Source: Solibacillus palustris (GTDB lineage: Bacteria; Bacillota; Bacilli; Bacillales_A; Planococcaceae). Taken from it: a DNA stretch of 64,000 nt. The notes below the pieces were generated by a model. It made no database searches and was not told the origin of the DNA. It saw nothing but the letters and a program-made list of their open reading frames with translations. Made by a program: the position numbers and the translations under genes. The stretch is taken from NCBI RefSeq assembly GCF_022549215.1, contig NZ_JAKZFC010000001.1, positions 992,001 through 1,056,000 of the forward strand, read 5' to 3'. This document shows positions 24,534 through 48,395 of the stretch, one piece after another (positions within the stretch are counted from its first letter, which is position 1; each line of letters opens with the position of its first letter).

Positions 24534-24592
24534 CAAAAGCTAAAAACGCCACGTCGTGTGGCAACGCTTTTGTGACATGCATCGTGCATGCC
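24534..24592 (+). repeat. Structured intergenic module, copy A
   Basis: Outer stem CAAAAGC/GCTTTTG (24534-24540 with 24566-24572) encloses hairpin GCCAC-GTCGT-GTGGC. A second hairpin CATGC-ATCGT-GCATG follows. Linkers TAAAAAC and AAC are conserved with the other copies. It lies in the yrkH-yrkI gap. Two further small hairpins (24596-24608 and about 24656-24681) follow. Confidence 0.8.
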
Positions 24593-24741
24593 TCAAACCG
24601 TTGCACGGTACGCTAATTAGCCCAAGTAAAACAATTATGAAATGTTACACATACGCTTGCCTCACGCTCAAGAGGCAAGCAACCGTCTTGTACGGTAAAA
24701 TCGAAAACCGCTTACAAATTATACGAAAAGAGGAACTCAAC

Positions 24742-24969
24742 ATGAATATTACAAAAACTTTAGACGCAAAAGGCTTTGCTTGCCCAATGCCAATCGTGCG
24801 TACAAAGAAAACAATTGACACAATTAACTCAGGTGAAGTACTGGAAGTATTAGTAACAGACAAAGGTGCTTTAAGTGATTTCCCAGCGTGGTCAAAAGCA
24901 AGTGGACACACAATTTTAGAAACAAAAGAAGAAGATGGCGTACATTTCTTCTACATTCAAAAAGCATAA
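24742..24969 (+). CDS. yrkI: TusA-family sulfur carrier (YrkI type)
   Basis: 75 residues with the CPMP motif at Cys14 (KGFACPMPIVRTKK). Similar to the TusA half of the fusion at 22348. It accepts and passes on sulfane sulfur in the cytoplasm. The ATG at 24742 is preceded by AGAGGAA; the frame stays open far upstream through repeat DNA, which I do not count as coding. Matches YrkI by size and by position before a TauE-family exporter. Confidence 0.93.
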   Translation: MNITKTLDAKGFACPMPIVRTKKTIDTINSGEVLEVLVTDKGALSDFPAWSKASGHTILETKEEDGVHFFYIQKA

Positions 24970-24980
24970 CAGTGTTATAG

Positions 24981-25008
24981 GCGAGTAGGGCATTGTTCTA
25001 CTCGCTTT
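24981..25008 (+). terminator. Probable terminator after yrkI
   Basis: Eight-bp stem (24981-24988 with 24998-25005), nine-base loop, short TTT tail. Confidence 0.6.
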
Positions 25009-25050
25009 AACTTGATTCAGTGGGGTTCAAAGCACGACTGAATAGGGGAA

Positions 25051-25109
25051 CTCAGGCTAAGAACGTCTCGTCGTGCGGCAACGCCTGAGTGACCAATAGC
25101 GTGTTGGCC
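25051..25109 (+). repeat. Structured module, copy B1
   Basis: Outer stem CTCAGGC/GCCTGAG, inner GTCTC-GTCGT-GCGGC (one mismatch), second hairpin CCAAT-AGCGT-GTTGG. Linkers TAAGAAC and AAC. Confidence 0.78.
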
Positions 25110-25156
25110 TAAGCCCCGGCGGATGTCACAGATTTTTTAGGAGTTTTAAAGAGGAA

Positions 25157-25214
25157 GTCAGCCTAAAAACGTCACATCGTGTGACAACGGCTGACTGACC
25201 CACGTCCTGTGGCC
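25157..25214 (+). repeat. Structured module, copy B2
   Basis: Outer stem GTCAGCC/GGCTGAC, inner GTCAC-ATCGT-GTGAC, second hairpin CCAC-GTCCT-GTGG. Linkers TAAAAAC and AAC. Confidence 0.8.
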
Positions 25215-25285
25215 CCGAACTTGAAAAAAATCTGGACACAATTACGCCGAGGCGTAATTGATTACTTAGAAAGAAGGAAAAAGCA

Positions 25286-26071
25286 ATGCAAATCGATTTA
25301 TCATTCACTTATATTGGCGTCATTTTTGCGCTTGGATTTGTTGGTTCATTTATCTCGGGTATGCTCGGGGTCGGGGGTTCCATTATTAAATACCCGATGC
25401 TGCTGTACATTCCACCATTATTCGGTTTAGCGGCATTTACTGCACACGAAGTATCTGGTATTAGTGCTGTGCAAGTATTTTTCGCGTCAATTGCGGGTGT
25501 TTGGGCTTATCGTAAAAGCGGCTTATTAAATAAAGATTTAATCATTTACATGGGAGCATTCATATTAATTGGTAGCTTTATCGGTAGTTATGGGTCAGGC
25601 TTTTTATCAGAAGATGCCGTTAATATCGTCTATGGTTTACTCGCAGTTATTGCAGCGGTTATGATGTTTATTCCACGTAAAACCGTAGAGGATGCAAGCG
25701 TAATTACCTTTAATAAAGCATTGGCGAGCTCATTAGCATTAATTGTTGGGATTGGATCAGGAATTGTCGGGGCAGCAGGTGGCTTTTTACTTGTACCGAT
25801 TATGTTAACGGTATTAAAAATACCAACACGTGTGACAATCGCGACGAGTTTAGCGATTACATTTATTTCGTCAATTGGTGGTAGTGTTGGTAAGTTGATG
25901 ACAGGTCAAGTAGAATACTGGCCAGCCTTTTTAATGATTATTGCAAGTATCATTGCTGCTCCACTCGGCGCAAAAGCTGGGCAAAAAATGAACATCAAAA
26001 TTTTGCAAGCCTTACTTGCAATCCTAATTGGTGCAACGGCTATTAAAATATGGGTTGATATTTTGTTATAA
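25286..26071 (+). CDS. yrkJ: TauE/SafE-family sulfur anion exporter (YrkJ type)
   Basis: 261-residue polytopic membrane protein (about eight helices) of the TauE/SafE family, with the repeated Gly-rich [16 protein letters not shown] and [16 protein letters not shown] motifs of its two halves. Such proteins export sulfite, thiosulfate or sulfonates. Here the likely cargo is the sulfite or thiosulfate made by the persulfide dioxygenase. AGAAGGAAAAAGC precedes the ATG. A repeat element separates it from the rest of the operon. Confidence 0.9.
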
Positions 26072-26080
26072 CAAATTGCG

Positions 26081-26120
26081 AAGGGAGTGTCCGAGAAGTA
26101 TTTCTGGGACACTTCCTTTG
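26081..26120. terminator. Terminator after yrkJ, part of a repeat family
   Basis: 12-pair stem (AAGGGAGTGTCC with GGACACTTCCTT, one wobble) around a loop of about 15 bases. The sequence is related in inverted orientation to the terminator at 44223-44264. Confidence 0.8.
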
Positions 26121-26200
26121 CGCCGAGGATGGTGAGAATTTATTCTGACCACCGCAGAAGCACCGCCTCAAGCGGATTATTATTACACGAGGCTTGCACT
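26081..26200 (-). repeat. Terminator-linked repeat, copy 1 (inverted)
   Basis: Read on the minus strand, this stretch matches 44090-44268: the GTGCTTCT...GGTGGTCAG block, TAATAATCC and the GGGA-TGTCC hairpin all recur. At the spot where the later copy contains a 59-nt structured module, this copy has unrelated sequence. Confidence 0.7.
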
Positions 26201-26236
26201 GTCCAAAAAGTTGTGACTTTTTGGATAGCCTCAATG

Positions 26237-26276
26237 AAAAGAAGCGCTACTTCCCAATTTCGAAGTAGCGCTTCTA
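26237..26276 (-). terminator. Terminator of the CarD-like gene
   Basis: 14-bp perfect stem (26240-26253 with 26262-26275) followed on the minus strand by TTTTCA. A second hairpin, TCCAAAAAGT paired with ACTTTTTGGA (26202-26225), lies beyond. Confidence 0.85.
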
Positions 26277-26290
26277 TTATGTGTATATGT

Positions 26291-26809
26291 TTAATAATGT
26301 GTAGCTATGGTAGTGTTGGCTTGAATTTTTTTGTGGATTTGTTGTTCGATTTGAGCTTTTGATTGCTTTAATGTTAGCTCTAAAATATCAAATATGACCA
26401 TTGAAATTTGCTGTAACATTTGTGCATCTTGTGAAGTGAGTTTCTTTTCTTGTTGTTGTAATTCTTGCTCTTTGCGAAGAATTGTATTCATGAGTTGTGC
26501 GATTTCTAAATGATTATTTTTACCCAAAATTTGAGAATGATTGCGTTGGCGATTTGATATGCGTTCGTCCCATTCGCTCGCTTCATTGGAAAAAATGTCG
26601 AGAATTTTACTTGCCTCATCGTAGCTAAGTAATTTTTCAAGCTGACTGTTATCGCTATCTACCGGGTGATATAGTGTGACACCCGGTTGCAATTTTGACT
26701 GTATAACATAGTACTGCATCGGTGTTCCAGTGAAATTTTGTTCTACAATGCTATCGATTTGGCAAATTCCGTGTGATTTATACAAAGTAAGATCACCAAT
26801 TTTGTACAT
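26291..26809 (-). CDS. CarD/CdnL-family transcription factor
   Basis: 172 residues from the ATG at 26809, preceded by AGGAGGG; the longer frame lacks a ribosome site. The N-terminal Tudor-like RNA polymerase-interaction domain (MYKIGDLTLYKSHGICQIDSI, about 1-60) is followed by a helical C-terminal half rich in Gln and Lys. In characterised members this family binds the RNAP beta subunit and stabilises open complexes. Its regulon here is unknown. Confidence 0.87.
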   Translation of the reverse strand: MYKIGDLTLYKSHGICQIDSIVEQNFTGTPMQYYVIQSKLQPGVTLYHPVDSDNSQLEKLLSYDEASKILDIFSNEASEWDERISNRQRNHSQILGKNNHLEIAQLMNTILRKEQELQQQEKKLTSQDAQMLQQISMVIFDILELTLKQSKAQIEQQIHKKIQANTTIATHY

Positions 26810-26977
26810 GTTTATAGCCCTCCTAAATGTTGTTAATTCTATTATAAGTGAAATAAAATTTTGCGTCAACTAAGTTGACTTTTAACTTGATTCAGAAAAT
26901 ACTTATTTACTATAAGCAATGCATCAGGTATGAAATCCTCCAATCAGCAGAGTTTATAAGCGGGCTGAATAGGGGAA

Positions 26978-27036
26978 CAAAGGCTAAGGGCACCACGTCC
27001 TGTGGCAACGCCTTTGCAATCAACATCATGTTGACC
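26978..27036 (+). repeat. Structured module, copy C1
   Basis: Outer stem CAAAGGC/GCCTTTG, inner CCAC-GTCCT-GTGG, second hairpin TCAAC-ATCAT-GTTGA. Linkers TAAGGGC and AAC. Confidence 0.78.
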
Positions 27037-27087
27037 TAATGCCCCCGGTGGATGTCACAGATTTTTTAGTGGAGTTAATTTAGGATT

Positions 27088-27146
27088 TTAGCCTAAGTTC
27101 ATCGCATTCATGCGATAACGGCTAACTGACCTGCATCATGCTGGCC
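27088..27146 (+). repeat. Structured module, copy C2
   Basis: Outer stem TTAGCC/GGCTAA, inner ATCGC-ATTCAT-GCGAT, second hairpin CCTGC-ATCAT-GCTGG (one T-T mismatch). Linkers TAAGTTC and AAC. Confidence 0.75.
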
Positions 27147-27263
27147 CAAAAAAATCTAGACGAGAGTTAGCTGGGGTGTAATTGATAATAGTATTTGAAA
27201 AAATAAAAAAGGTTTAGTATGATGCTTGAGAAGTTATTGAACGGACAGTTAGGAGTACAACAC

Positions 27264-27677
27264 ATGAATGATTTAATAGAATTATTATATCGACAACGTA
27301 AGCAGTTACGCCATGTAGCAGAGACGATGTGGAACAGCAAATATGAATTACATTTAACAAGCTCAGAATGGTCTGTATTAAAGAGTATTTCTGAAGGAAA
27401 AAGAACCGTCCCAGAGCTTGTTGTTCAGCTTGATATTACAAAGCAGGGTGTACACAAGTTTTTACAATCTTTGCAAGATAAAGAGCTAATTAAAACAGAG
27501 CTTGTAAAGGGGACAAAGCTACAAAAAGTCGCTTCATTAACAGACAAGGGTCAGGATGCAATGCAAAAAAGTTTGGCACTAGATTATGAAATTTCGGAAA
27601 TGGTGCGCGCTTCAATCGGCCACGAGCAATACGAACAGCTTATTTCGATATTAGGAAAACCATTAATTTCTAATTAA
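27264..27677 (+). CDS. MarR-family transcriptional regulator
   Basis: 137 residues from the ATG at 27264 (TTAGGAG nine bases before). An upstream ATG at 27219 is possible but weaker. The winged helix-turn-helix region TSSEWSVLKSISEGKRTVPELVVQLDITKQGVHKFLQSLQ is flanked by dimerisation helices. No ligand or target is evident; the adjacent zinc-ribbon membrane protein is co-directional and could be co-transcribed. Confidence 0.82.
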   Translation: MNDLIELLYRQRKQLRHVAETMWNSKYELHLTSSEWSVLKSISEGKRTVPELVVQLDITKQGVHKFLQSLQDKELIKTELVKGTKLQKVASLTDKGQDAMQKSLALDYEISEMVRASIGHEQYEQLISILGKPLISN

Positions 27678-27732
27678 AGTGACACATTTTTCCTATATAA
27701 AACGTATTACAATAAAAAAGGAGTGGGACACT

Positions 27733-28170
27733 ATTAAAGAAAAAGAATTTATAACGCAAGAGCATGTTGCAACACGCAATAAATTTCGATCTTTAGGGCC
27801 GATTGTTTTAGGAGCAGGAATATTATGTGTGGTTATAGCAGGTATTGATTTTTTTACTTTAGATTTCTTTGAATCTCCTAAATATTTTTACCTATTTTTT
27901 ATTGGCTTACCATTACTTGCAATCGGCTTTAATTTAACTAGTTTAGGATATGGTTCGAAATTGGCTGCCTATCAAAGTCGTGAAATGGCACCAGTCGCAA
28001 AGGATACATTTAATTATTTGGCGAATGAAACGACAGGGAGCATTGAGAAAATTGCACAGGCTGCACAGAAGGGGAAAAGTACCGTGGTGGAGGCGAAGCA
28101 ATGCGGCAATTGTCAGGAATTGAATAAAATCGATGCAAAGTTTTGCAATGAATGTGGCAAGGCGTTGTAA
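27733..28170 (+). CDS. Membrane protein with C-terminal zinc ribbon, likely ATT start
   Basis: 145 residues if initiated at ATT 27733. Two membrane helices (about 22-40 and 50-75), then a linker and a C-terminal double-CxxC zinc ribbon (CGNCQELNKIDAKFCNECG). The frame stays open to a GTG at 27679, but that codon has no ribosome site. A perfect AAGGAG (27718-27723) ends nine bases before the in-frame ATT, and no ATG, GTG or TTG is near. Function unknown. Confidence 0.7.
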   Translation: MKEKEFITQEHVATRNKFRSLGPIVLGAGILCVVIAGIDFFTLDFFESPKYFYLFFIGLPLLAIGFNLTSLGYGSKLAAYQSREMAPVAKDTFNYLANETTGSIEKIAQAAQKGKSTVVEAKQCGNCQELNKIDAKFCNECGKAL

Positions 28171-28176
28171 TGAAAC

Positions 28177-28213
28177 AAGGAGTGCTCGATTTTCTTTCGA
28201 TGCACTCCTTTTA
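28177..28213. terminator. Bidirectional terminator between convergent genes
   Basis: Nine-bp stem AAGGAGTGC/GCACTCCTT with an inner TCGA pair; T-rich on both outward sides. Confidence 0.85.
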
Positions 28214-28217
28214 TGAT

Positions 28218-28916
28218 CTAAAGAATTCCTTTATCAGAAAAAACTGCGTCAATACCCAGTTGTTCCATTTGTTGTGCAATTTTTTTGTTATTAACTGTGT
28301 AGGTACGGACAATAATACCTTGCTGAATCATCCGCTGAATAATCGAGCGGATGCCATAATAATACGGAATATGGATGGCCTGACAATCAAAATTTCGTAC
28401 ATATTCATCAAGTTTTGTAATGAGTGAAGCAAATAACAGTGCACAGTTGACGTTTGGCTGAATTTGCTGGAAACGGGCAATTGTATCGTGATTAAACGAT
28501 GAAACAATAATTCTTTTATTTTGTTGGAATTTTTCAATGGTTTTAGCAACAAGTATTTCAATACCGGGATATTCAAACACATCGGACTTAATTTCGATAT
28601 TGATTTGGTGTTTGGTATCTTTGAAAATATCAAGAACTTCTTCCAATGTACAAATTTTTTCGCCTGCAAATTTTGCTTCAAACCATGATCCAAAATCATA
28701 GGTTTTTAATTCGGCTAATGTTAGGTCTTTTACAAAACCAGTGCCATTTGATGTGCGGTCGATTGATTCGTCATGAATAACGACTAACTGCTGATCCTTC
28801 GTTAAATGCACGTCAAATTCTACCCCCCAGCAGGAAAGTTTAGCAGCTTGTTGAAAAGCAATTGCAGTGTTTTCAGGGAAGCTAGCACTAAGTCCACGAT
28901 GGGCAAGAATTTTCAT
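28218..28916 (-). CDS. Glycerophosphodiester phosphodiesterase (GDPD family)
   Basis: 232 residues, TIM-barrel GDPD family. Catalytic and metal-site motifs are visible: LAHRGLS with PENT at the N-terminus, EFDVHLTKD (Glu and Asp ligands) and the second catalytic His in VIHDESIDRT. No signal peptide, so a cytoplasmic UgpQ-like enzyme that hydrolyses glycerophosphodiesters to glycerol-3-phosphate and an alcohol. AAAGGTGG precedes the ATG. Confidence 0.9.
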   Translation of the reverse strand: MKILAHRGLSASFPENTAIAFQQAAKLSCWGVEFDVHLTKDQQLVVIHDESIDRTSNGTGFVKDLTLAELKTYDFGSWFEAKFAGEKICTLEEVLDIFKDTKHQINIEIKSDVFEYPGIEILVAKTIEKFQQNKRIIVSSFNHDTIARFQQIQPNVNCALLFASLITKLDEYVRNFDCQAIHIPYYYGIRSIIQRMIQQGIIVRTYTVNNKKIAQQMEQLGIDAVFSDKGIL

Positions 28917-28928
28917 AATTGACCACCT

Positions 28929-29204
28929 TTAGCGTTCACATGCAATGCCATCATTGTCACGATCGCTTTTATCATTTTTTGTATATAATTCTGCTGAAAC
29001 GAAAGGCTTATATTTCGTTTTTCCGCCAATATTTTTAACAGTAGCGCTTTTGGCAATACCACCAGAATAAATGGCATTAATTTCTTTGCAATTTTTGTAT
29101 TCAACTATTTTTACTTTTGTCGATGCCTCTGCTTCAATTGTAGGAGTGGTAACACTTCCTATTATTGCAACACTCATAAAAATAGGGTAAATGTATTTTT
29201 TCAA
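28929..29204 (-). CDS. Secreted excalibur-domain protein
   Basis: 91 residues. A signal peptide (about 1-27, cleavage near EAEA) is followed by an excalibur calcium-binding domain with the conserved YKNC and the EF-hand-like DRDNDGIACER end. Extracellular and small; the family's function is poorly defined. It lies 12 bases upstream of the GDPD gene and is probably co-transcribed with it. AGGAGG-type site before the ATG. Confidence 0.85.
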   Translation of the reverse strand: MKKYIYPIFMSVAIIGSVTTPTIEAEASTKVKIVEYKNCKEINAIYSGGIAKSATVKNIGGKTKYKPFVSAELYTKNDKSDRDNDGIACER

Positions 29205-29243
29205 ATCAAAAACCTCCGCAAAATGTATTTTTCAACATTTTAC

Positions 29244-29282
29244 CAAAAAAAGAAACGAATTCACAAGGAGGATGTGAATTCG
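29244..29282 (-). terminator. Terminator of fabI
   Basis: 10-bp perfect stem (29256-29265 with 29273-29282) followed on the minus strand by TTTCTTTTTTT. Confidence 0.92.
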
Positions 29283-29291
29283 CTAAAATAA

Positions 29292-30059
29292 CTAACCCAT
29301 AATATGATAGCCGCTATCGATATAAATCGTTTCGCCAGTAACGCCACGAGATAAATGGCTAAGCATGACAATGGTCATATCTGCTACTTCTTCTTTACTC
29401 GTATTACGTTTAAGTGGTGCATTTTCTTCAATTTTATGCAGTATATCATTGAAACTTGGCACACCTTTTGCAGCTAATGTTCGAATTGCACCAGCCGAAA
29501 TCGCATTGACACGGATATTTTCAGCGCCTATATCAGCAGCTAAATAACGCATCGACGCTTCAAGTGCAGCCTTTGCAACACCCATGACATTGTAGCCTGG
29601 TAAGACACGCTCTGCTCCTAAATAAGACATTGTCACGATTGAACCGCCCTCTGTCATATAAGGCTTTGCAGCTTTTGCTACGGCAATCAATGAATACGCA
29701 CTTGTATCTTGAGCAAATGCATATCCATCACGCGTTGTTTCAACGAAGCGATTGTGTAAGTCCTCGGCGTGCGCAAAAGCAACAGAGTGTACAATTCCAT
29801 GAATCACACCAAACTGCTCACCAATTTGTGTAAAGGCATTTGCAATACTTGCATCATTGTTAACATCACATTCTACAATAGTAGCTTCTTGACCAGCTAA
29901 AATTTTTTCTATTTTACTCTTTGAGCGTTCTTTTCGATATGTGAAAATAACATTTGCTCCTACATCAAATAGTCGCTTTGCAATGCCCCAAGCGATACTA
30001 CGCTCATTAGCAACACCCATAACGACAACATTTTTACCTTGTAATTGTAGTAAATCCAT
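29292..30059 (-). CDS. fabI: Enoyl-ACP reductase FabI
   Basis: 255-residue short-chain dehydrogenase of the FabI class: N-terminal GVANERSIAWGIA nucleotide motif and the catalytic Tyr-x6-Lys pair in YNVMGVAK (about 156-163). It carries out the final reduction of each fatty-acid elongation round using NAD(P)H. Its promoter region holds a FapR operator. GGGGTG precedes the ATG, and a terminator follows. Confidence 0.94.
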   Translation of the reverse strand: MDLLQLQGKNVVVMGVANERSIAWGIAKRLFDVGANVIFTYRKERSKSKIEKILAGQEATIVECDVNNDASIANAFTQIGEQFGVIHGIVHSVAFAHAEDLHNRFVETTRDGYAFAQDTSAYSLIAVAKAAKPYMTEGGSIVTMSYLGAERVLPGYNVMGVAKAALEASMRYLAADIGAENIRVNAISAGAIRTLAAKGVPSFNDILHKIEENAPLKRNTSKEEVADMTIVMLSHLSRGVTGETIYIDSGYHIMG

Positions 30060-30086
30060 AAAGACACCCCTGTATAATAGTTATTA

Positions 30087-30103
30087 TTAGTACCAACTAC
30101 TAA
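30087..30103. promoter_or_regulatory. FapR operator of fabI
   Basis: TTAGTACCAACTACTAA is a full inverted repeat matching the FapR box (TTAGTACC...TACTAA), 28-44 bases upstream of the fabI start. FapR represses fatty-acid genes until malonyl-CoA rises. Confidence 0.9.
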
Positions 30104-30149
30104 TAATAACTATAACATTGCATGCGTAACGTGTAAATCATTTTCTAGG

Positions 30150-30196
30150 ACAAAATAAAAAACGATCTCTCAATTAAAAAAATCAAGAGATCGTTT
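30150..30196 (-). terminator. Terminator of fer
   Basis: 11-bp perfect stem (30160-30170 with 30186-30196) and A-rich loop, followed on the minus strand by TTTTATTTTG. Confidence 0.88.
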
Positions 30197-30204
30197 GAGT
30201 TTTA

Positions 30205-30495
<291 letters not shown>

Positions 30496-30555
30496 TTATT
30501 CTAAATGTGTTCTTCTTACATTTCAACATAATACTACGAAAATGAGGGATTTGAT

Positions 30556-31596
30556 TTGCTAATTCAACAAATTCTTTTAAAAATCTTACATACATTTCAA
30601 CAAGAACGTACTGTTTCCGCTGCTTTTCATCTACTAAAGGGTAAACGCTCTGGGCAAACGATTCAAGATGTAGGTCTTTATAAATTGTATCCGTTTTTTG
30701 GCCTTTTACCAAAATTACCACGTCTAAAATTTGATCAGCAAATTGATTTACTATTTGCTAAAAATTATATTGATATAGATGAAAATGGCTATTACAAAAT
30801 GTCTGAAATAGGGAAAGAGCTTGCGTCACAGCCGTTATCGATTACTTTTGATAGTTGGCACTATCGTGGCAATGAACATCTATTTTTCGGGCGGTTATCA
30901 CTTGTTGTACAGAGTTTGTCACATCAAGAAAATAACCAGAAAGCATTTATCCCAATTGAGCGAAACGATCAAATTCAAGGCTGGGTGCGTCAATTTTTAA
31001 TCGCAAATCGTTTTCAGCAACATTCACTACAATCTCAACTATATGAAGAAATGACAAGGTGTTTGACAAAATTATCAGTTGAAGAACGAGTGAAAGAAAT
31101 ACTCATCTTCCGATTAACGGGCTACAACGAACCCGGATTTACTTGGCAGCAGTTAGCATTTGGCTATCACATGCAGGAAATGGACGTGCAGCTCTATTAT
31201 ATTAGTGGTTTACACGCCTGGTTAAATGAAATCGAGAAGCAGTCATCCAATTATCCGTTATTATCACAAATTGCGATGGAAATTCGTGTGGAGGCATTGT
31301 TAACGTTGTCAGCAAATGAAACAGCCCAGCTCTTTAAAAAAGGGCATTCAATCGACGAAATCAGTCTTATTCGTCGTTTAAAATTAAATACTATTGAAGA
31401 TCATATTGTTGAAATGGCAATGAATGAACCGAACTTTTCTATCGATGAATTCGTTACAATGGAAGACCAACAGCAAATTTTACAGACCGTTGAAAATTAC
31501 GAAACAAAGCGTTTAAAAACATTAAAGGAAATTTTGCCGCATGTAAGTTATTTTCAATTGCGTTTAACATTGGCGAAAGGGGCGACAACGCAATGA
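30556..31596 (+). CDS. ypbB: YpbB, helix-turn-helix protein upstream of RecQ
   Basis: 346 residues, matching YpbB in length and position. The C-terminal part contains a helicase-associated helix-turn-helix (AQLFKKGHSIDEISLIRRLKLNTIEDHIVEMA). It overlaps recQ by four bases, so the products are probably made together and work together. The TTG at 30556 is the likely start (GAGGGAT upstream). Exact biochemical role unknown. Confidence 0.85.
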   Translation: MLIQQILLKILHTFQQERTVSAAFHLLKGKRSGQTIQDVGLYKLYPFFGLLPKLPRLKFDQQIDLLFAKNYIDIDENGYYKMSEIGKELASQPLSITFDSWHYRGNEHLFFGRLSLVVQSLSHQENNQKAFIPIERNDQIQGWVRQFLIANRFQQHSLQSQLYEEMTRCLTKLSVEERVKEILIFRLTGYNEPGFTWQQLAFGYHMQEMDVQLYYISGLHAWLNEIEKQSSNYPLLSQIAMEIRVEALLTLSANETAQLFKKGHSIDEISLIRRLKLNTIEDHIVEMAMNEPNFSIDEFVTMEDQQQILQTVENYETKRLKTLKEILPHVSYFQLRLTLAKGATTQ

Positions 31597-33032: not shown

Positions 33033-33117
33033 TAATTTTAGCACGAACCGTTTACTTTTTTGTAGATATTCGTCATAATATACGTAAATGTTTTAGTAGT
33101 TGGAGGGTTGAGAGACC

Positions 33118-33774: not shown

Positions 33775-33809
33775 AGTGTTCATTATTTATAGCTGTATAG
33801 AGGAATAGC

Positions 33810-33847
33810 AAAAGACGAAACGTGACAAACGCTCGTCTTTTTCTTTT
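33810..33847 (+). terminator. Terminator after ypbE
   Basis: Nine-bp stem AAAAGACGA/TCGTCTTTT with a 14-base loop and T-rich tail. Confidence 0.8.
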
Positions 33848-33866
33848 GATTGGAGGTTGATGATAT

Positions 33867-34634: not shown

Positions 34635-34677
34635 CAGTATAATAAGATGTATGGAACAATTTTAAGGAGATGTTAGT

Positions 34678-38390: not shown

Positions 38391-38402
38391 ATAGGAGAGA
38401 AT

Positions 38403-39683: not shown

Positions 39684-39773
39684 GAATATTGAAAAAACCA
39701 TTTGTATTCTATGGCTAAAATCCTAATCCCATGAGATAATAGCATTTATTATGTTACAGACGGGGAGGGGCAA

Positions 39774-40427: not shown

Positions 40428-40435
40428 AAAATCTG

Positions 40436-40475
40436 AAAACGCACTTTGAAGTTCTATTTTCAAAGTGCGTTTTTT
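40436..40475 (+). terminator. Terminator of ypfA
   Basis: 15-bp perfect stem (40436-40450 with 40459-40473) and T run. Confidence 0.94.
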
Positions 40476-40550
40476 CATGAAATAGAACGTAAAAATCGAA
40501 TATCTATTTCCTATTATGTTACAATATCAACTGAAAGTAGGGATTAATTT

Positions 40551-41222
40551 ATGGCAAAAAAAATTCAAATTGCAATTGATGGTCCAGCAGGGGCAGGGAA
40601 AAGCACAATTGCAAAAATTGTAGCAGAAGCACTTCAATTTACGTATATTGACACAGGGGCAATGTATCGAGCGGTAACGTATAAAGCATTGAACGAAAAC
40701 ATACAATTACATGACGCACAAGCAATCGAAACAATGCTAAATCATACAACAATCGCATTACAACCTTCAGAACAAGGGCAATTAGTGTTTGTAGATGGTG
40801 AAGACGTTTCGCAGGCAATTCGTTCAAATGATGTAACTTCAAATGTTTCTGAAGTTGCAGCACATGCGAATATTCGTGAAATATTAGTTGCTATGCAGCA
40901 AAAATTAGCAGCAAATGGCGGCGTTGTTATGGATGGCCGAGATATTGCAACACATGTGTTAAAAGATGCAGAGCTTAAAATTTTCATGTCAGCTACCGTT
41001 GAAGAACGTGCGCGTCGTCGTTTCCTAGACAATGAACGTCGTGGAATTGAGTCGACAATTGAATTGTTACAACAGGAAATAGCATTACGTGATAAGCTGG
41101 ATAGTGAACGTGAGGCTTCTCCATTAATCCAAGCAGAAGATGCATTATTTTTAGACACAACGAATTTATCAATTGATGAAGCTGCACAAGAAATTTTAAA
41201 GTTAGCGCAAGCAAAAATGTAA
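40551..41222 (+). CDS. cmk: Cytidylate kinase
   Basis: 223 residues, P-loop nucleoside monophosphate kinase. IAIDGPAGAGKSTIAK at the N-terminus, the YIDTGAMYRAVTYKA CMP-site segment and the DGRDIATHVLKDA block are diagnostic. Phosphorylates CMP/dCMP. Start ATG, with AGGGATTA as a modest ribosome site. Followed by ypfD as in B. subtilis. Confidence 0.97.
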   Translation: MAKKIQIAIDGPAGAGKSTIAKIVAEALQFTYIDTGAMYRAVTYKALNENIQLHDAQAIETMLNHTTIALQPSEQGQLVFVDGEDVSQAIRSNDVTSNVSEVAAHANIREILVAMQQKLAANGGVVMDGRDIATHVLKDAELKIFMSATVEERARRRFLDNERRGIESTIELLQQEIALRDKLDSEREASPLIQAEDALFLDTTNLSIDEAAQEILKLAQAKM

Positions 41223-41342
41223 GATTTTTTTAGGTCAATCCAACACAGGAACATGAAATTTCTGAAAATAAAGGGATATTTTTTGTTTTTGTAGAACTTT
41301 TCGAATAAAATAAAAAGTGGAATATGCGAAGGAGGGTTACAT

Positions 41343-42488
41343 ATGTCTGAGGAAATGAATTTAGGGTCAAACCAGCTGTTTCAAGAAGGAGATATTGTAA
41401 AAGGTGTTGCTGAGCAAGTAGATGAGAAGTCAGTAACGGTTTCAATTGAAGGAGCACCTTTCGACGGAATTATACCGATTAGCGAACTTTCAAGCTTACA
41501 CATTGAAAAAGCTTCTGATTTAATCTCAGTTGGCGAACAACTGGATTTAATGATTACAAAAGTTGAAGAAGGAAATTTTGTGTTATCGAAGCGAAAAGTC
41601 GACGCGATTCAAGCGTGGGATCAGCTGGAAGTGAAATTTCAATCTGGTGAAGTTTTCGATGCAGAAGTAAAAGATGTTGTAAAAGGCGGGCTAGTTGTAG
41701 ATTTAGGCGTGCGCGGCTTCGTTCCAGCTTCACTTGTTGAAGATTATTTTGTTGAAAACTTTGATGATTACAAAGGAAAAACATTAAGCTTTAAGATTAC
41801 TGAATTAGATAAGGAAAAAGGTCGTTTAATTTTATCGCATCGTGCTGTAGTAGAACAACAAAAAGCTTCGAAAAAGCAGCAAGTGATAGATACTATTAAA
41901 GAAGGCGACGTTTTAGAAGGGACAGTTCAACGTCTAGCAAACTTCGGTGCATTCATCGATTTAGGTGGCGTAGATGGATTAGTCCATATTTCACAAGTGG
42001 CACATGAGCACGTAGATAATGTTTCCACTGTACTTTCTGAGGGGCAAGCGGTAAAAGTGAAGGTTCTTTCAGTTGATCCTGCAAACGAGCGTATTTCGCT
42101 GTCGATTAAAGATACGCTACCGGGACCATGGACAGAAATCGAACAAAAAGCTGCAAAAGGCTCGGTTATTTCAGGTACGGTAAAGCGCATAGTGACATTT
42201 GGAGCATTCGTTGAAGTATTTCCAGGTGTTGAAGGTCTTGTACACATTTCACAAATTGCGCATAAGCACATTAACACACCACATGAGGCATTAAAAGATG
42301 GCCAAGTGGTAGAAGTAAAGGTACTTGAAGTAAACGAAGCAGAAAAACGCTTAGCGTTAAGCATTAAAGCGCTACAAGAAGCACCTGAAAGTGAAGAAGA
42401 CTTCGATTACGAGTTACCGGAAGAAAACACGGGCTTCTCATTTAGTGATGTTATTGGGGACCAATTAAAAGGCTTTAATAAAAAATAA
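41343..42488 (+). CDS. ypfD: S1-domain protein YpfD (RpsA-like)
   Basis: 381 residues made of four S1 RNA-binding repeats, at about 15-84, 100-170, 186-254 and 271-341. The last two are the best conserved (FGAFIDLGGVDGLVHISQ and FGAFVEVFPGVEGLVHISQIAHKH). An acidic tail ends it. The Firmicute homologue of ribosomal protein S1, with four instead of six repeats. GAAGGAGGG precedes the ATG. Confidence 0.94.
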   Translation: MSEEMNLGSNQLFQEGDIVKGVAEQVDEKSVTVSIEGAPFDGIIPISELSSLHIEKASDLISVGEQLDLMITKVEEGNFVLSKRKVDAIQAWDQLEVKFQSGEVFDAEVKDVVKGGLVVDLGVRGFVPASLVEDYFVENFDDYKGKTLSFKITELDKEKGRLILSHRAVVEQQKASKKQQVIDTIKEGDVLEGTVQRLANFGAFIDLGGVDGLVHISQVAHEHVDNVSTVLSEGQAVKVKVLSVDPANERISLSIKDTLPGPWTEIEQKAAKGSVISGTVKRIVTFGAFVEVFPGVEGLVHISQIAHKHINTPHEALKDGQVVEVKVLEVNEAEKRLALSIKALQEAPESEEDFDYELPEENTGFSFSDVIGDQLKGFNKK

Positions 42489-42510
42489 AAGAGTCTAATA
42501 ATGAAATAAT

Positions 42511-42551
42511 CACACAACCTTTCTCGCATTAGAGGGAGGTTGTATTTTTTT
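42511..42551 (+). terminator. Terminator after ypfD
   Basis: Seven-bp stem ACAACCT/AGGTTGT with a long loop, followed by a T run; moderate. Confidence 0.6.
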
Positions 42552-42653
42552 ATGGATGAGAAACTAGACTACAATTCAGTTATGCGGTACACCACAAATT
42601 GCTACGAGAAATATTACGCGGACAAGTGCCCATTTGTTTCAAAACCAAATGCA

Positions 42654-42682
42654 TTTCGAATAGTGTGAAAAAATGATATAAT
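42654..42682 (+). promoter_or_regulatory. Candidate sigma-A promoter of der
   Basis: TTTCGA (42654-42659), 17 bases, perfect TATAAT (42677-42682), about 54 bases before der. The -35 is weak. A second TATAAT occurs a little downstream. Confidence 0.45.
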
Positions 42683-42735
42683 AGATAAATTCGTGTATAA
42701 TACAAGAAGATAGAGTTTGGAAGGATGAAGTACAG

Positions 42736-44046
42736 ATGACAAAACCAGTAATCGCCATCGTAGGACGTCCGAACGTAGGAAAGTCGACAATTTTTAACCG
42801 AATCGTCGGCGAGCGTGTATCCATCGTGGAAGATATTCCAGGTGTAACACGTGACCGTATTTATAGTTCGGCTGATTGGCTAGCACATGAATTCAACATT
42901 ATTGATACAGGCGGGATTGAAATTGGGGACGAGCCATTTTTAGAGCAAATTCGTCAACAAGCAGAGATCGCTATTGATGAAGCAGACGTAATTATTTTCA
43001 TGACAAATGGTCGTGAAGGCGTAACGGCAGCGGATGAACAAGTAGCAAGAATTTTATATAAAACGAAAAAACCGGTTGTTTTAGCTATCAATAAAGTCGA
43101 TAACCCAGATATGCGTCATATGATTTATGATTTCTATTCATTAGGTTTCGGTGAGCCTTGGCCAATTTCAGGTTCACACGGTTTAGGTTTAGGGGATTTA
43201 TTAGACGAATGTGCGAAACATTTCCCTTACCAAGATGAAGAGCAATATGATGAAGATACGATTAAATTCTCATTAATCGGTCGTCCAAATGTTGGTAAAT
43301 CTTCGTTAGTAAACGCATTCCTTGGTGAAGATCGAGTAATCGTAAGTGAAATTCAAGGAACAACGCGTGATGCAATTGACTCACCGTATTCATTTGATGG
43401 ACAAGATTATGTGATCATTGATACAGCAGGTATGCGTAAAAAAGGTAAAGTATATGAGACGACTGAAAAATATTCAGTATTACGTGCATTACGTGCCATT
43501 GAACGCTCTGACGTTGTTTTAGTTGTTCTGAACGCTGATGAAGGTATTCAAGAACAGGACAAAAAAATCGCGGGTTATGCGCATGAAGCGGGTAAAGCGA
43601 TTGTGATTGTTGTAAACAAATGGGATGCGATTGAAAAAGATGAAAAAACGATGAACCTGTTCACAGAACAAATTCGTGAGCATTTCTTATTCTTAGATTA
43701 TGCACCAATCGTATTCGTATCAGCGAAAACAAAACAGCGTGTACGTAACATCTTACCAATCATTAAACGTGTAAGTGAAAACCACGCAATGCGTATTCAA
43801 TCATCAATCTTAAATGAAGTAATCGAAGACTCTGTAGCACGTAACCCGGCGCCAACAGATAAAGGTCGTCGTTTACGTATTTACTACGCAACGCAAGTGG
43901 CAATTAAACCACCGACATTTGTTGTATTCGTAAATGAACCAGAAATGATGCACTTCTCATATGAGCGCTTCTTAGAAAACCGAATTCGTGAAACATTCGA
44001 TTTCGAAGGAACACCAATTCGTTTAATTACACGTGCTCGTGATTAA
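42736..44046 (+). CDS. der: GTPase Der (EngA), ribosome assembly factor
   Basis: 436 residues with two tandem GTPase domains: first P-loop GRPNVGKST (about 10-18) with DTGG, second GRPNVGKSS (about 182-190) with [10 protein letters not shown], each followed by an NKxD (NKVD, NKWD). A C-terminal KH-like domain (about 355-436) completes it. Required for 50S maturation. Usual length and position. Confidence 0.98.
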
Positions 44047-44149
44047 TAAATGGGACCTTCCAAAAAGTGTTTACCTTTCGGAAAGTGCCCATCACATGTA
44101 TTAATAATCCGTTGGAGACGGTGCTTCTAGGGTGGTCAGAAAAGTTGAT

Positions 44150-44208
44150 CGAATGCTAGAAACGTCACTTCGTGTGACAACGCATTCGTGACCAGCATCG
44201 TGCTGGCC
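44150..44208 (+). repeat. Structured module, copy D
   Basis: Outer stem CGAATGC/GCATTCG, inner GTCAC-TTCGT-GTGAC, second hairpin CCAGC-ATCGT-GCTGG, all perfect. Linkers TAGAAAC and AAC. Confidence 0.82.
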
Positions 44209-44222
44209 TCCAACCTAGGAGC

Positions 44223-44264
44223 AAAGGGAATGTCCCGGAATTACTTCTCGGACATTCCCTTTTC
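44223..44264 (+). terminator. Terminator between der and gpsA
   Basis: 13-bp perfect stem (44223-44235 with 44250-44262), 14-base loop, TTTTCTTT tail. Confidence 0.88.
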
Positions 44265-44331
44265 TTTCATAATGAAATTTGACTTAAAGATAACTGAAAA
44301 TAAAACTTTGAGTGAAATTGGGGGTTTTAAA

Positions 44332-45345
44332 ATGGAAAATGTAGTAGTTTTAGGGGCAGGCTCTTGGGGAACTGCACTGGCAATTGTATTAGCTGAAAAT
44401 GGCCATAATACGTTAATTTGGTCGCATCGTGAAGATCAGGCAAATGAAATTAATACGATGCATACAAACAAAAAATATTTGCCAAATACCGTATTGCCGG
44501 AATCATTAAGCGCAACAAGTGATTTACAGGTAGCGGCTCAACATGGCTCGACAATTGTAATGGCAGTACCTACTAAGGGGATTCGTGAAGTTTGTGGTAA
44601 TATTTCGCAATATTTAGAGCAGCAAGCGCTATTTGTACATGTATCTAAAGGAATCGAACCAGATTCATTAATGCGTATTTCAGAATTAATGGAAGAAAGC
44701 TTAGCGGCACATGCGGTAAGTGATATCGTTGTTTTATCAGGACCATCACATGCCGAAGAGGTAGTATTACAGCATCCGACGACTGTAACAGCGGCATGCA
44801 AAAACTTAGCGGCTGCCGAAAAAGTGCAAGACTTATTTATGAGCCAATATTTCCGAGTATACACAAACGATGATGTTGTAGGTGTAGAAATAGGGGGCGC
44901 ATTGAAAAACGTTATTGCGTTAGCTGCAGGGATGACAGATGGCTTGGACTTTGGTGACAACGCGAAAGCCGCATTAATTACACGTGGATTAGCGGAAATT
45001 ACACGTCTTGGTGTCAAAATGGGTGGTAATCCGTTTACGTTTGCTGGACTTACAGGTATGGGAGACTTAATCGTTACTTGTACAAGTGTGCACTCACGTA
45101 ACTGGCGTGCAGGAAATATGTTAGGTAAAGGTATGAAGCTTGACCAAGTGCTCGAAGAAATGGGTATGGTAGTTGAAGGCGTGCGTACTACTAAAGCAGC
45201 GCATCAATTAGCTATGAAATACGAGGTATCTATGCCGATTACCTCTGCACTTTACGATGTTTTATTTAAAGACATGGAACCAAAAGCATTAGTCGATTCA
45301 TTAATGGTTCGTACGAAAAAAAGAGAAATCGACGAAATGAGCTAA
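44332..45345 (+). CDS. gpsA: Glycerol-3-phosphate dehydrogenase [NAD(P)+]
   Basis: 337 residues from the ATG at 44332 (GGGGG upstream); the open frame further upstream runs through the terminator and is not coding. N-terminal VLGAGSWGTALA nucleotide motif, SGPSHAEEV, EIGGALKNVIALAAGM with the catalytic Lys, and LTGMGDLIVTC. Makes sn-glycerol-3-phosphate for phospholipids. Confidence 0.97.
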   Translation: MENVVVLGAGSWGTALAIVLAENGHNTLIWSHREDQANEINTMHTNKKYLPNTVLPESLSATSDLQVAAQHGSTIVMAVPTKGIREVCGNISQYLEQQALFVHVSKGIEPDSLMRISELMEESLAAHAVSDIVVLSGPSHAEEVVLQHPTTVTAACKNLAAAEKVQDLFMSQYFRVYTNDDVVGVEIGGALKNVIALAAGMTDGLDFGDNAKAALITRGLAEITRLGVKMGGNPFTFAGLTGMGDLIVTCTSVHSRNWRAGNMLGKGMKLDQVLEEMGMVVEGVRTTKAAHQLAMKYEVSMPITSALYDVLFKDMEPKALVDSLMVRTKKREIDEMS

Positions 45346-45618
45346 TTCATAATAGCTTGTAATGAACGTGAAAAATTTAATAATTTGTCACAAATCGGGA
45401 GGTAACATTAGGTGCTTCCTGTATTTTTTTGCCTAAAAAGGCTATAATTATTTGCGGGATAGAGTGAAAATTTGCTAGGTGGGTATTTTCCTTATCCAAC
45501 CGAGCATTAGACTTCACCAATCGGGCTTTTAAGGACAGTGGAACGCTCGCTAAATTGTCCTGTTTTGAAGTGGACCTTAGTGAGGGATAAATGTGAAATT
45601 AACAGGAAGGCGGTTTTA

Positions 45619-45885
45619 ATGTTGCAACATCTTATGCAAATGAGTCCATCGGTATATGTATTAGCATCAGCACGTGGTCCATTAGCAAGTATGCACGCAC
45701 TTGATGTCATGTGGGTCTCGTTTTATTCAATCGGCTTATTGCTTGTTTCGTTATTAATAATTTCGGCCGTTCGTAAATGGGTACATAATGCTTTATTATC
45801 TTTTCTTTTGAAATTAGTCGCGTATGTTATGTTTTTTATCGGAACATTATTAATGGTGCTTGTCATATTAACATGGCCAAACTAA
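45619..45885 (+). CDS. yphE: YphE-like small membrane protein (DUF2768)
   Basis: 88 residues from the ATG at 45619 (AGGAAGG upstream). Two membrane helices (about 30-50 and 60-83). A start at the internal Met25 (MHALDVMWVSFYSIGL) would give a length closer to the usual DUF2768 size. Position between gpsA and yphF matches yphE. Function unknown. Confidence 0.75.
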   Translation: MLQHLMQMSPSVYVLASARGPLASMHALDVMWVSFYSIGLLLVSLLIISAVRKWVHNALLSFLLKLVAYVMFFIGTLLMVLVILTWPN

Positions 45886-45901
45886 TGAAAGAGGGATACA
45901 T

Positions 45902-46621
45902 ATGAAAAAGTTATCGAAATGTTTTGTTGTTTTATCATTTGTTGTAGTATTGCTAGCAGGTTGTGGCTCACCGGCAAATTTTGATCAGTCGAGTTTGCGT
46001 CCTGATATTGATATGCTTGCGGGTGTACAACGTGCAGTTGAAGAATATCAAAAGGATACGGGCGTGTTACCGATAAAAACGCGAGATGAAGATACAGATA
46101 TTTTCATTAAATACTTAATTGATTTTGATAAGCTCGTGCCCAAATATATTGGTTCTCCTCCAGCGAATTCCTATGAAAAAGGCGGTATTTTTCAATATAT
46201 GATTTGGGATGCGGAGAACAATCCGACCGTCAAATTAGTGGATTTACGTACACCAGAGCGCATGCGTGAGATTAATATTCGTTTCCATGCAGCCGAGTAT
46301 CCGCAGTTTAAAGATAAGGTGCAAGAGCATGTATACACGATCAATTATGAGAACATTGGTTTTGAAGAAGAGAAAACGGTAAATAGTCCCTATTCAAACA
46401 ACCAATTGCCATTTATCGTAACAGTAGAAGGGGATATTTATGTCGATTATTCCATCGATTTATATAATTATATGAAAGATAATAATCTAACTGCGAAGCC
46501 TGGTGATGACATTCGTGAGCTATTGGTAGATAATTTCCCAGTAGTGCCGGCATATTCATTACCATATACAGTGGATGAAAATAATGAGCCGATTATTGTC
46601 TATGATCCTCTCAAAAAATAA
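45902..46621 (+). CDS. yphF: YphF-like lipoprotein
   Basis: 239 residues. Lipoprotein signal with lipobox LLAGC (Cys21) and a mature domain with no motif I recognise. Length and position upstream of spoIVA match YphF of B. subtilis. GAGGGAT precedes the ATG, 16 bases after yphE. A terminator follows. Confidence 0.85.
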   Translation: MKKLSKCFVVLSFVVVLLAGCGSPANFDQSSLRPDIDMLAGVQRAVEEYQKDTGVLPIKTRDEDTDIFIKYLIDFDKLVPKYIGSPPANSYEKGGIFQYMIWDAENNPTVKLVDLRTPERMREINIRFHAAEYPQFKDKVQEHVYTINYENIGFEEEKTVNSPYSNNQLPFIVTVEGDIYVDYSIDLYNYMKDNNLTAKPGDDIRELLVDNFPVVPAYSLPYTVDENNEPIIVYDPLKK

Positions 46622-46626
46622 TTTGT

Positions 46627-46658
46627 AAAATCTCGCACTGTACGTGCGGGATTTTTTT
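46627..46658 (+). terminator. Terminator of yphF
   Basis: 12-pair stem with one wobble around TGTAC, then TTTTTTT. Confidence 0.88.
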
Positions 46659-46738
46659 CATAGTATGGACGTTTAATTCATATGGTGTTAGTGAGCATTT
46701 TTGCAGTTTTTGATTTCGCTTAAAGAGGAGGCAGTGCA

Positions 46739-48217
46739 ATTAGCGAACAAATTTTCCAACAGTTGGCACAACGGACAAACGGTGATTTGTATATTGGGGT
46801 AGTGGGACCTGTTCGAGTAGGGAAGTCGACATTTGTGAAAAAGGTAATGGAGAATGTTATATTACCGAATATTGATAATGCAGAAGACCGGATGCGCGCA
46901 ATGGATGAATTACCTCAAAGTTCGCCGGGGCCGGTTATTATGACGTCTGAGCCGAAATTTGTTCCTGCACAGGGAACAACGGTTACATTTGGACAAAGTG
47001 CAATTCCAATGCGTGTGCGACTTGTAGATTGTGTAGGGTATGTTATTGACGGTGCGAAAGGTTATGAAGATGAGTCAGGTCCAAAATATGTCCAAACACC
47101 ATGGCATAATGAAGCAATCGCGTTTCAAGAAGCGGCCAAAATTGGTACGGACAAAGTAATTAGAGATCATGCAAATATCGGTATTGTAATTACTGCAGAC
47201 GGTACAGTAAATGGCATGAGTCGCGCGGCTGCTCAAAAAGCCGAAGAAGAAATTATCGGGCAGCTAACGGATATTGGCAAGCCGTTTGTCATTGTTTTAA
47301 ATAGTAACACGCCAAATAGTATGGAAGCACAAACGATCCGCAATCAATTAGCGGAGAAGTATGAAGTACCGGTTATTGCGACATCTATTACAAATATGCA
47401 ATTAGAGGATATTATGCATGTCCTTGAAGAAGCGCTATTTGAATTTCCAGTTAAAGAAATACAAGTAGAAAAGCCAGATTGGTTAGATGTGCTTGATAAC
47501 GAACACGAAATTAATGAAACACTTTCTTTTGCAAGTGCTCAGCTGCAAGATGATTTTATGAAAATTCGTGATGTTGAAGAAGCAAGTGCGATTTTACAAC
47601 AAATTGATTTTGTCGAAAGCTGTTCAGTGGAGTCAATTGATCCTGGGTTAGGTGTTGCGACTTTACGTGTAACGCTCTACAATGACATTTATAAGGACGT
47701 ATGTAAGCAATGGCTTGAAAAACCAGTAGATTCAAAAAAGGATTGGCTGTTATTTATTAAAGAAGCTTCAGAAGCTAAAAGTGCGCAGCAGCGTTTCCGC
47801 AATGCGATTGAAGAAGCTAAGGGTAGTGGCTACGGTGTGACATTACCAATGATGGATGAATTTGATCCGAGTGAGCCAGAACTGATTTCTCAAAATAATT
47901 TTTATGGCGTGCGTATGAAAGCCGTTGCGCCGTCTTACCACATTATTCGAATCGACATGGAAGCTGAGTTTGCACCATTAATTGGTTCGGAATTTCATAG
48001 CCAGCATTTGCTGAAGGATTTACAGCATGCGTATTCATATGACCGAAATGCGCTTTGGCAAACGCAATTATTTGGAACGCCATTACATGAGGTGCTGACA
48101 GAAAGTATTCGCTATAAGATGAAAGGCGTACCAGAACATGCTAAAAATCGTATGCGTTTAATGCTTGAACGAATGATTAATGAAGGTGAACGCGGCTTGA
48201 TTACGTTTATCATCTAA
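46739..48217 (+). CDS. spoIVA: SpoIVA, spore-coat basement ATPase, likely ATT start
   Basis: 492 residues if started at ATT 46739, equal to B. subtilis SpoIVA. Walker A GPVRVGKST (about 25-33), the SpoIVA TRAFAC-like ATPase core to about 230, a middle domain and the conserved C-terminus GERGLITFII needed for localisation. A strong AGAGGAGG ends seven bases before the ATT. The next usable codon, TTG 46763, would cut off SEQIFQQL, which aligns with conserved N-terminal sequence. Polymerises on the forespore membrane to seat the coat. Confidence 0.95.
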   Translation: MSEQIFQQLAQRTNGDLYIGVVGPVRVGKSTFVKKVMENVILPNIDNAEDRMRAMDELPQSSPGPVIMTSEPKFVPAQGTTVTFGQSAIPMRVRLVDCVGYVIDGAKGYEDESGPKYVQTPWHNEAIAFQEAAKIGTDKVIRDHANIGIVITADGTVNGMSRAAAQKAEEEIIGQLTDIGKPFVIVLNSNTPNSMEAQTIRNQLAEKYEVPVIATSITNMQLEDIMHVLEEALFEFPVKEIQVEKPDWLDVLDNEHEINETLSFASAQLQDDFMKIRDVEEASAILQQIDFVESCSVESIDPGLGVATLRVTLYNDIYKDVCKQWLEKPVDSKKDWLLFIKEASEAKSAQQRFRNAIEEAKGSGYGVTLPMMDEFDPSEPELISQNNFYGVRMKAVAPSYHIIRIDMEAEFAPLIGSEFHSQHLLKDLQHAYSYDRNALWQTQLFGTPLHEVLTESIRYKMKGVPEHAKNRMRLMLERMINEGERGLITFII

Positions 48218-48235
48218 CGTGTTTTAGCAAAATAA

Positions 48236-48395
48236 TTATTGCCTCTGGCGGATGTTATAGATTTTTAGAGGAGTTTTTAAGAGGAGGTCAGCCTAAAAAC
48301 ATCACATCCTGTGATAAAGGCTGACTGATTCACGTACTGTGACCCTACGCTTAAAAATCTGAACGCAATTACGCCGAGGCGCAATGAATAAAAAT
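48236..48395 (+). repeat. Composite intergenic element E (right half)
   Basis: Equivalent to the right half of element B: GGCGGATGTTATAGATTTTTAG, AGAGGAGGTCAGCC, one module, TTAAAAATCTGAACG and the GCAATTACGCCGAGGCGCAA hairpin. The left half with its module is missing. Confidence 0.78.
48287..48344 (+). repeat. Structured module, copy E
   Basis: Outer stem GTCAGCC/GGCTGAC, inner ATCAC-ATCCT-GTGAT, second hairpin TCAC-GTACT-GTGA. Linkers TAAAAAC and AAA. Confidence 0.8.

Follow-up and report, generated by a model that had tools for sequence, protein, structure and literature searches.

Bacillaceae-1 modules of Solibacillus palustris as likely hairpin building blocks of interspersed intergenic repeats

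What is a short hairpin module that recurs seven times between the genes of one bacterial region, with stems that differ from copy to copy and still pair? The question is raised by a stretch of 64,000 nucleotides from Solibacillus palustris (NCBI RefSeq assembly GCF_022549215.1, contig NZ_JAKZFC010000001.1, positions 992,001 to 1,056,000; hereafter the window), in which an initial annotation had described a 59-nucleotide module of no recognised family and had proposed either a structured RNA or a single-strand-DNA substrate of a transposase or recombinase. We find that all seven copies belong to Bacillaceae-1 (RF01690), and that this module is likely to be a hairpin building block of interspersed repeats that are short, non-coding and non-autonomous and have spread through Solibacillus and its relatives. 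Between the two proposals, a hairpin DNA element fits best, given presence and absence within one species, empty sites and mosaic elements, while the mobilising agents named for it do not fit.

With the Rfam 15 covariance model, RF01690 matched all seven modules and nothing else in the window, full length and on the + strand, at 52.1 to 71.1 bits (E 1.2e-6 to 4.4e-11; gathering score 35 bits). The strength of this match supplies the family that had gone unrecognised, an outcome that the initial annotation had itself named as counting against its claim, and rules out a new RNA family. The match spans 67 nucleotides and begins 10 bases 5' of the module as first drawn, taking in a leader with a conserved GGAA. 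Bacillaceae-1 was published in 2010 (Weinberg et al.) as a presumed RNA that is probably not cis-regulatory, according to the portion of that report available (PMC2864571).

The source genome (G000) holds 101 matches, 100 of them above the cut-off, on both strands, so that the + strand location reported for all copies is a property of the seven in the window. All 16 Solibacillus genomes carry the family, with 3 to 107 matches each (e.g., 93 in G001, a second genome of the same species, and 103 in G007). Further afield, 202 of 261 genomes in an order-level sample had matches (at most 18 candidates scored per genome, and all listed rows from one family), as did 2 of 119 in a thin phylum-level sample, including the source genome. 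Bacillus subtilis served as positive control for the search; eight formerly unannotated Bacillaceae-1 copies are described for it in the available part of PMC8208703.

Most copies sit within larger scaffolds, mostly in intergenic gaps, of which there are at least four types: A, with the module in either of two positions (A1 and A2), B, C, and D. Classified by their flanks, the 101 copies comprise 38 A1, 15 A2, 39 B, 6 C, 1 D and 2 others, including 25 copies that the script left open and that were assigned by eye. Type A starts near TTTAACTTGATTCAG with one or more 5' hairpins followed by position A1; its 3' part is a stem, CGGCGGATGTCACAGATTTTTT ... AAAAAATCTGGAC, whose tip carries a module (A2) or, failing that, a plain hairpin, and it ends in AATTACGCCGAGGCGTAATTGAT. 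Type B consists of a long 5' hairpin (CTGTCCAAAAAGTA...TACTTTTTGGACAG), a module on a stem and a 3' terminator-like hairpin, typically followed by a T-run. Type D, a repeat rich in GC, lies upstream of rimM (this name, like der, gpsA, spoIVA, hup and tusA below, is our presumptive reading of a translation).

Comparison with G001 revealed extensive turnover of these elements within the species. By direct alignment of wide stretches, in which modules were counted and the paired modules of one element thus count twice, 55 of the 101 copies are present in G001, 30 are absent and 1 is unclear (86 placed), with 15 not placed. Absent copies include 14 A1, 4 A2, 11 B and 1 C. Viewed in reverse, 113 module matches in G001 stretches near G000 copies, some repeated through overlaps, divide into 64 shared, 7 absent in G000 (at four sites) and 42 unmapped. 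At four sites filled in G000 (C39:180365, C22:74411, C12:94068 and C22:5720) a whole A element is missing from G001, which has an empty site; elements with a module in A2 only are likewise missing at C1:784888 and C1:920039. A reciprocal whole-A site, occupied in G001 and empty in G000, was seen once (in L196, L217 and L218).

Other differences concern the module by itself. At three A1 positions (C1:865551, C1:258979 and C38:115911) G001 has, instead of the module, a matching 3' arm of the preceding hairpin, and at a B element (C1:1233707) a small AGAATAAATTCT hairpin; by alignment only, one module of a pair is missing at C1:544412 and C33:239629. The B case at C1:1233707 is one of ten B copies missing in G001 that were read in detail. 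Eight others amount to terminator substitution: where G000 has the B element, G001 has between the same flanks a different, terminator-like hairpin of at least 10 pairs, one of which (C39:194176) resembles a B 5' hairpin. In the tenth case a short hairpin in G001 stands opposite a truncated B. The eleventh absent B copy, C39:230285, is one of two adjacent B copies and is known from alignment only.

Within the window, the seven modules are as follows.
24524 to 24590, + strand: Bacillaceae-1 module outside the A, B, C and D scaffolds, just 3' of the gene ending at 24510; RF01690 68.8 bits; the corresponding site also matches the profile in L174, L175, L187 and L188.
25041 to 25107, + strand: module in position A1; RF01690 52.1 bits.
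25147 to 25213, + strand: module in position A2, at the tip of the CAGATTTTTT/AAAAAATCTG stem, which is present in the fold; RF01690 71.1 bits.
26968 to 27034, + strand: module in position A1; RF01690 67.9 bits.
27077 to 27144, + strand: module in position A2; RF01690 54.5 bits.
44140 to 44206, + strand: module of a B element; RF01690 62.9 bits.
48277 to 48343, + strand: module in position A2; RF01690 60.5 bits.

The scaffolds around them, and three that lack a module, are the following.
25006 to 25262, + strand: A-type mosaic element with two modules, directly 3' of a terminator T-run; both ends located; absent from L175, and in G001 reduced to the two A-element ends without either module.
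26881 to 27186, + strand: two-module element of type A that has additional 5' hairpins; the G001 version has diverged, with most of the A1 module missing and the A2 module decayed.
44053 to 44264, + strand: B-type element (5' hairpin, module, 3' terminator hairpin) that fills the der-gpsA gap; common to G001.
48246 to 48389, + strand: A-type stem in the spoIVA-hup gap, its single module in position A2; common to G001, absent in S. faecavium and S. merdavium.
53775 to 53880, - strand: A-type scaffold without module, both ends located; G001 (L209) has a module in the stem tip there.
26087 to 26229, - strand: pieces of a B-type scaffold (5' hairpin, middle, 3' terminator hairpin) without module; no RF01690 match.
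20552 to 20579, - strand: sequence matching the C-type scaffold at its 3' end, without module; no RF01690 match.

The two of these elements that were folded do so far more stably than their shuffled sequences, with z of -4.45 for 25006 to 25262 and -4.60 for 44053 to 44264.

Inspection of the seven copies located each one, with its outer arms, as originally described. The general plan of the module also holds, i.e., an outer stem enclosing one 5-bp hairpin and followed by a second, but the linkers deviate from the proposed TAARRRC, AAC and TGA (copy 26978 has CAA for TGA, and copy 44150 has TAGAAAC), and the first hairpin of copy 25051 is mismatched. Nor do the loops stay fixed: loop 1 is mainly RTCGT or RTCCT and loop 2 mainly ATCGT or TTCGT, with AGCGT in copy 25051 and GTACT in copy 48287 as exceptions. 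Across the 85 genome copies of exactly 67 nucleotides, loop 1 is RTCGT in 43 and RTCCT in 27; RUCCU terminal loops are the consensus of RF01690.

At the first copy, within window positions 24480 to 24620, the insert contains an inverted copy and a direct repeat of the end of the preceding gene, and in some relatives the two inverted arms differ yet still match each other. Nesting and extension of the module were seen elsewhere in the family. In Psychrobacillus sp. OK032 (L148:10111-10174, - strand) one module is nested in a second one, where it takes the place of the 3' arm of the first hairpin. Modules of Lysinibacillus can hold a further short hairpin, of the GCTGACGCTTCGCTTTCGC...AACAT type, in their last loop (L102:12448, L106:3516 and 12475, L110:12108, L130:8713), in tandem in L110, and a sequence similar to this hairpin occurs, reversed, in the 5' hairpins of Solibacillus type A.

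The same sites in other species carry alternative states. Downstream of the tusA-like gene, most of 20 stretches have a plain terminator-like hairpin; in G000 and G001 an A element begins at the end of that hairpin's T-run, and in G004, G005, G006 and G009 a module-less A-like element occupies the same place. S. faecavium and S. merdavium (L093 and L094), the closest relatives with a name that were found (Der 97% identical), have an ordinary terminator and no module copy in the der-gpsA gap, and they lack the spoIVA-hup copy as well. Upstream of rimM, the 16 Solibacillus genomes display many states, with profile matches to the module in 3 of them: a module-bearing D in G000 and G001, a D whose module is replaced by a short loop in G002 and G003, no element and a single GGAATGG in G004 and G009, an A scaffold reversed with the module forward in G007, and different elements or none in the others. 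In L303 type D is flanked on both sides by AATGG (GGAATGG in some relatives), while the empty sites L311 and L314 have GGAATGG once, a pattern like a target duplication. In the G007 case (L318:1285-1343), the module stands opposite to its A scaffold, an arrangement that inversion of the stem tip would give.

With gene orientation taken from a crude longest-ORF (open reading frame) caller, both neighbours run with the module for 44 of the 101 copies and against it for 14, with 31 copies between convergent and 12 between divergent genes. Convergent gaps hold 22 of the 39 B copies. The distance to the stop codon of an opposing downstream gene is 54 to 84 nucleotides in 20 of the 22 script-labelled B copies with such a gene, approximately the length of the B 3' part; B thus fills the gap to the stop codon.

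Does selection maintain the structure at each of these places, as the initial annotation had concluded from the stems? We compared 44 orthologous copies between G000 and G001 (of the 55 present, 8 not of 67 nucleotides and 3 with insertions or deletions were dropped; an earlier run on 46 copies had the same outcome). Differences were about equally frequent in the leader (26/437, 5.9%), stems (76/1491, 5.1%), loops (22/439, 5.0%) and junctions (34/568, 6.0%). DNA 300 to 500 bases from the modules differed at 537 of 17340 positions (3.1%), which is no neutral yardstick since these distant flanks are largely coding. When pairs changed, 15 stayed paired and 49 were paired in one genome only, i.e., a kept fraction of 0.23 against 0.31 ± 0.06 in a neutral simulation using the flank transition rate. 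An average resident copy thus shows no visible protection of its pairing, and selection on structure holds at most for spreading lineages, with the old site at 24534 as an exception.

Covariation across copies is nonetheless real. After dropping 16 of the 101 copies not exactly 67 nucleotides long and collapsing 3 identical ones among the remaining 85, standard pairs filled 90.9% of pair cells in 82 distinct copies (88.0, 92.4 and 93.4% in the three helices) compared to 75.1% when shuffled, and the covariation score was 0.428 compared to 0.162; none of 500 shuffles was as high for either. Sliding partner columns by 1 to 3 reduced pairing to 27-40%. The numbers of pairs changed on both sides (13 versus 11.1 shuffled, 42 of 500 shuffles as high) and of further pair types (29 versus 27.1, 103 of 500) did not go beyond the shuffles. 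Among the 67-nucleotide copies, the outer arms follow subfamilies: 25 B copies have the 5' arm CGAATGC, 9 of 10 A2 copies have GTCAGCC, and A1 copies have chiefly CTCAGGC, CGAAGGC or CTTAGGC. Since much of the covariation separates these subfamilies, pair cells cannot be taken as independent, and there are fewer independent events than cells. Because copies common to both genomes show no protected pairing, the covariation seems mainly to separate spreading subfamilies, with no general RNA function seen at each locus.

Template switching, in which one hairpin arm is copied onto the other, would produce stem covariation by mutation rather than by selection, and we see this as conceivable but doubtful as its overall source. 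The mechanism is described in the consulted portion of PMC8794818, where it can create and repair stems, so that part of the covariation could be mutational. Two features here agree with it, namely the inverted copy of the adjoining gene's end in the 24534 insert and the module-less A hairpins, whose arms match each other yet differ between loci. Both-sided pair changes between G000 and G001, however, numbered 4 compared to 1.9 simulated, and 1 compared to 0.7 without the two most diverged copies, so that direct signs of the process are few.

It is improbable that the modules form a conventional small non-coding RNA (sRNA) family as the Rfam type "sRNA" implies, i.e., many RNA genes or untranslated-region domains each under selection for a host function such as protein binding. 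Such a family could account for the covariation, the two near-constant loops, the excess of copies with both neighbours co-directed (44 against 14 opposed), an orientation compatible with transcription, and the persistence of much of the fold at 24534 in several species. It does not account for the absence of 30 of 86 placed copies from a genome of the same species, for orthologous stems that change like loops and whose pairs break as in a neutral simulation, or for copy numbers of 3 to 107 within one genus.

A substrate of a Y1 (HUH) transposase, akin to REP/REPIN sequences with a RAYT or to an IS200/IS605 derivative, is less probable still. The modules are hairpins, and the Y1 domain PF01797 occurs in 9 of the 16 Solibacillus genomes, but it was not found in the other 7, including G000, G001 and G007 with their 101, 93 and 103 copies; the RAYT- or TnpA-like genes whose presence elsewhere in the genome had been suggested are hence missing from the PF01797 search of G000. 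On this same-genome evidence we rejected a REP/RAYT or IS200/IS605 derivative. A replication strand bias would also suit such a substrate (61 of 93 copies in G001, if the contig starts at the origin), but it could simply follow gene direction and decides nothing. That the reverse strand encodes a CsrA-binding decoy RNA, as proposed for Bacillaceae-1 in the accessible text of PMC4333381, is very improbable and was rejected, with reverse-strand GGA in loop 1 of 28, loop 2 of 8, both loops of 2 and neither loop of 51 of the 85 copies, forward-strand loops without GGA, and a hairpin plus T-run on the module strand of B elements.

The reading as non-autonomous interspersed repeats has to be weighed against several points of its own. 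We infer movement of elements and modules from presence and absence and never observed it, and two genomes cannot polarise gain versus loss. The counts depend on method: an earlier interval projection combined with the profile had yielded 60 shared, 32 absent and 9 unmapped copies, and six copies switched between the two approaches (C22:74679 and C1:1019077 had been called absent and proved present, and four others had been called shared and proved absent). No target-site duplication was evident at the clean A empty sites, and no mobilising gene was found. Module subtype follows scaffold position, so that free hopping of modules must be rare, and most spread must be of whole elements or by conversion between copies. 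Finally, at 24534 the outer stem and most hairpins are kept in G013, G015 and G008, whose versions of the neighbouring gene are 85, 82 and 80% alike to that of G000, and G008 has a both-sided difference (CAAATGC/GCATTTG for CAAAAGC/GCTTTTG). This persistence may hint at constraint at some loci, or the loci may have been re-copied; the last hairpin has decayed there in G001, and the copy is truncated in G011, with another module further on.

How such repeats might spread can be outlined from these patterns. Structure would be needed while an element propagates, probably as a folded single strand, such that successful lineages would remain folded while resident copies decay. Insertions would persist mainly 3' of stop codons because they do little harm there, with type B supplying its own terminator. 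Modules would most likely be gained and lost by hairpin-for-hairpin exchange at stem tips or arms, through template switching in replication or through recombination between repeat copies. Hairpin exchange of this kind would explain why terminators are substituted, why stem arms gain modules, why modules are found nested or reversed, and how an inverted gene end came to lie at 24534. More speculatively, and with the odds against it, these could be the marks of a transposase-free hairpin-exchange system, in which short cassettes spread by replacing existing hairpins (terminators, stem tips, stem arms and each other) and continually re-tile terminators and 3' regions across Planococcaceae, the Rfam "sRNA" being one such cassette.

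Judged by published descriptions, the nearest known kind is the BOX repeats of pneumococci. BOX elements of Streptococcus are modular and intergenic; their inner hairpin module can be missing or occur several times, they are enriched between convergent genes, one genome has 125 of them, and in S. suis the same inner module occurs between different outer modules (PMC3049150, in the part available). The elements described here are likewise modular and interspersed, and one and the same scaffold may or may not contain the inner module. BOX is also reported with terminal inverted repeats and target-site duplications (same source), which were not seen here for type A, and the available part of that source does not mention BOX elements in place of terminators. 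Set against these two marks, which define a miniature inverted-repeat transposable element (MITE), clean A sites show no evident duplication, while type D has AATGG/GGAATGG on both sides and the motif stands once in G009 and G004. The SPRITE repeats of S. pneumoniae are, like type B, terminator-like, located near gene 3' ends and strongly enriched between convergent genes, but they consist of one duplex followed by a U-rich tract, and the available part of PMC3049150 mentions no inner module.

A second analogue by description is the bcr1-bcr18 set of the Bacillus cereus group, 100-400 bp long, in which bcr1 has 11 to 130 copies per strain and features of mobility; in the portion available of the same report, however, the bcr repeats are confined to that group and tied to TTTAT repeats (PMC6542083). 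Bhal-1 of Bacillus halodurans, a repeated stem-loop family of 74 bp and 36 copies in what is available of PMC2267715, could be Bacillaceae-1 under an older name, likened here by description only. RF01690 itself, to which all seven window copies and 100 of the 101 genome matches belong by the curated cut-off, is treated as a presumed RNA, whereas the copies here belong to larger mosaic repeats, as one of their modules, and turn over strongly within a species; moreover, loop 1 is here more often RTCGT than the consensus RUCCU. Searches of open-licence papers on the family itself, Lysinibacillus repeats, Bhal-1 and terminator insertion gave no description of Bacillaceae-1 as a component of mobile repeats.

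If the proposed reading is true, it cautions that the many copies of a family within a single genome can covary strongly without selection on an RNA at each locus. An annotated small-RNA family would then have to be reinterpreted as a unit of mobile DNA, its long lack of a known function would be accounted for, and the swapping of terminators by a terminator-bearing element would offer a direct, countable system for the replacement of terminators and 3' regions in bacteria.

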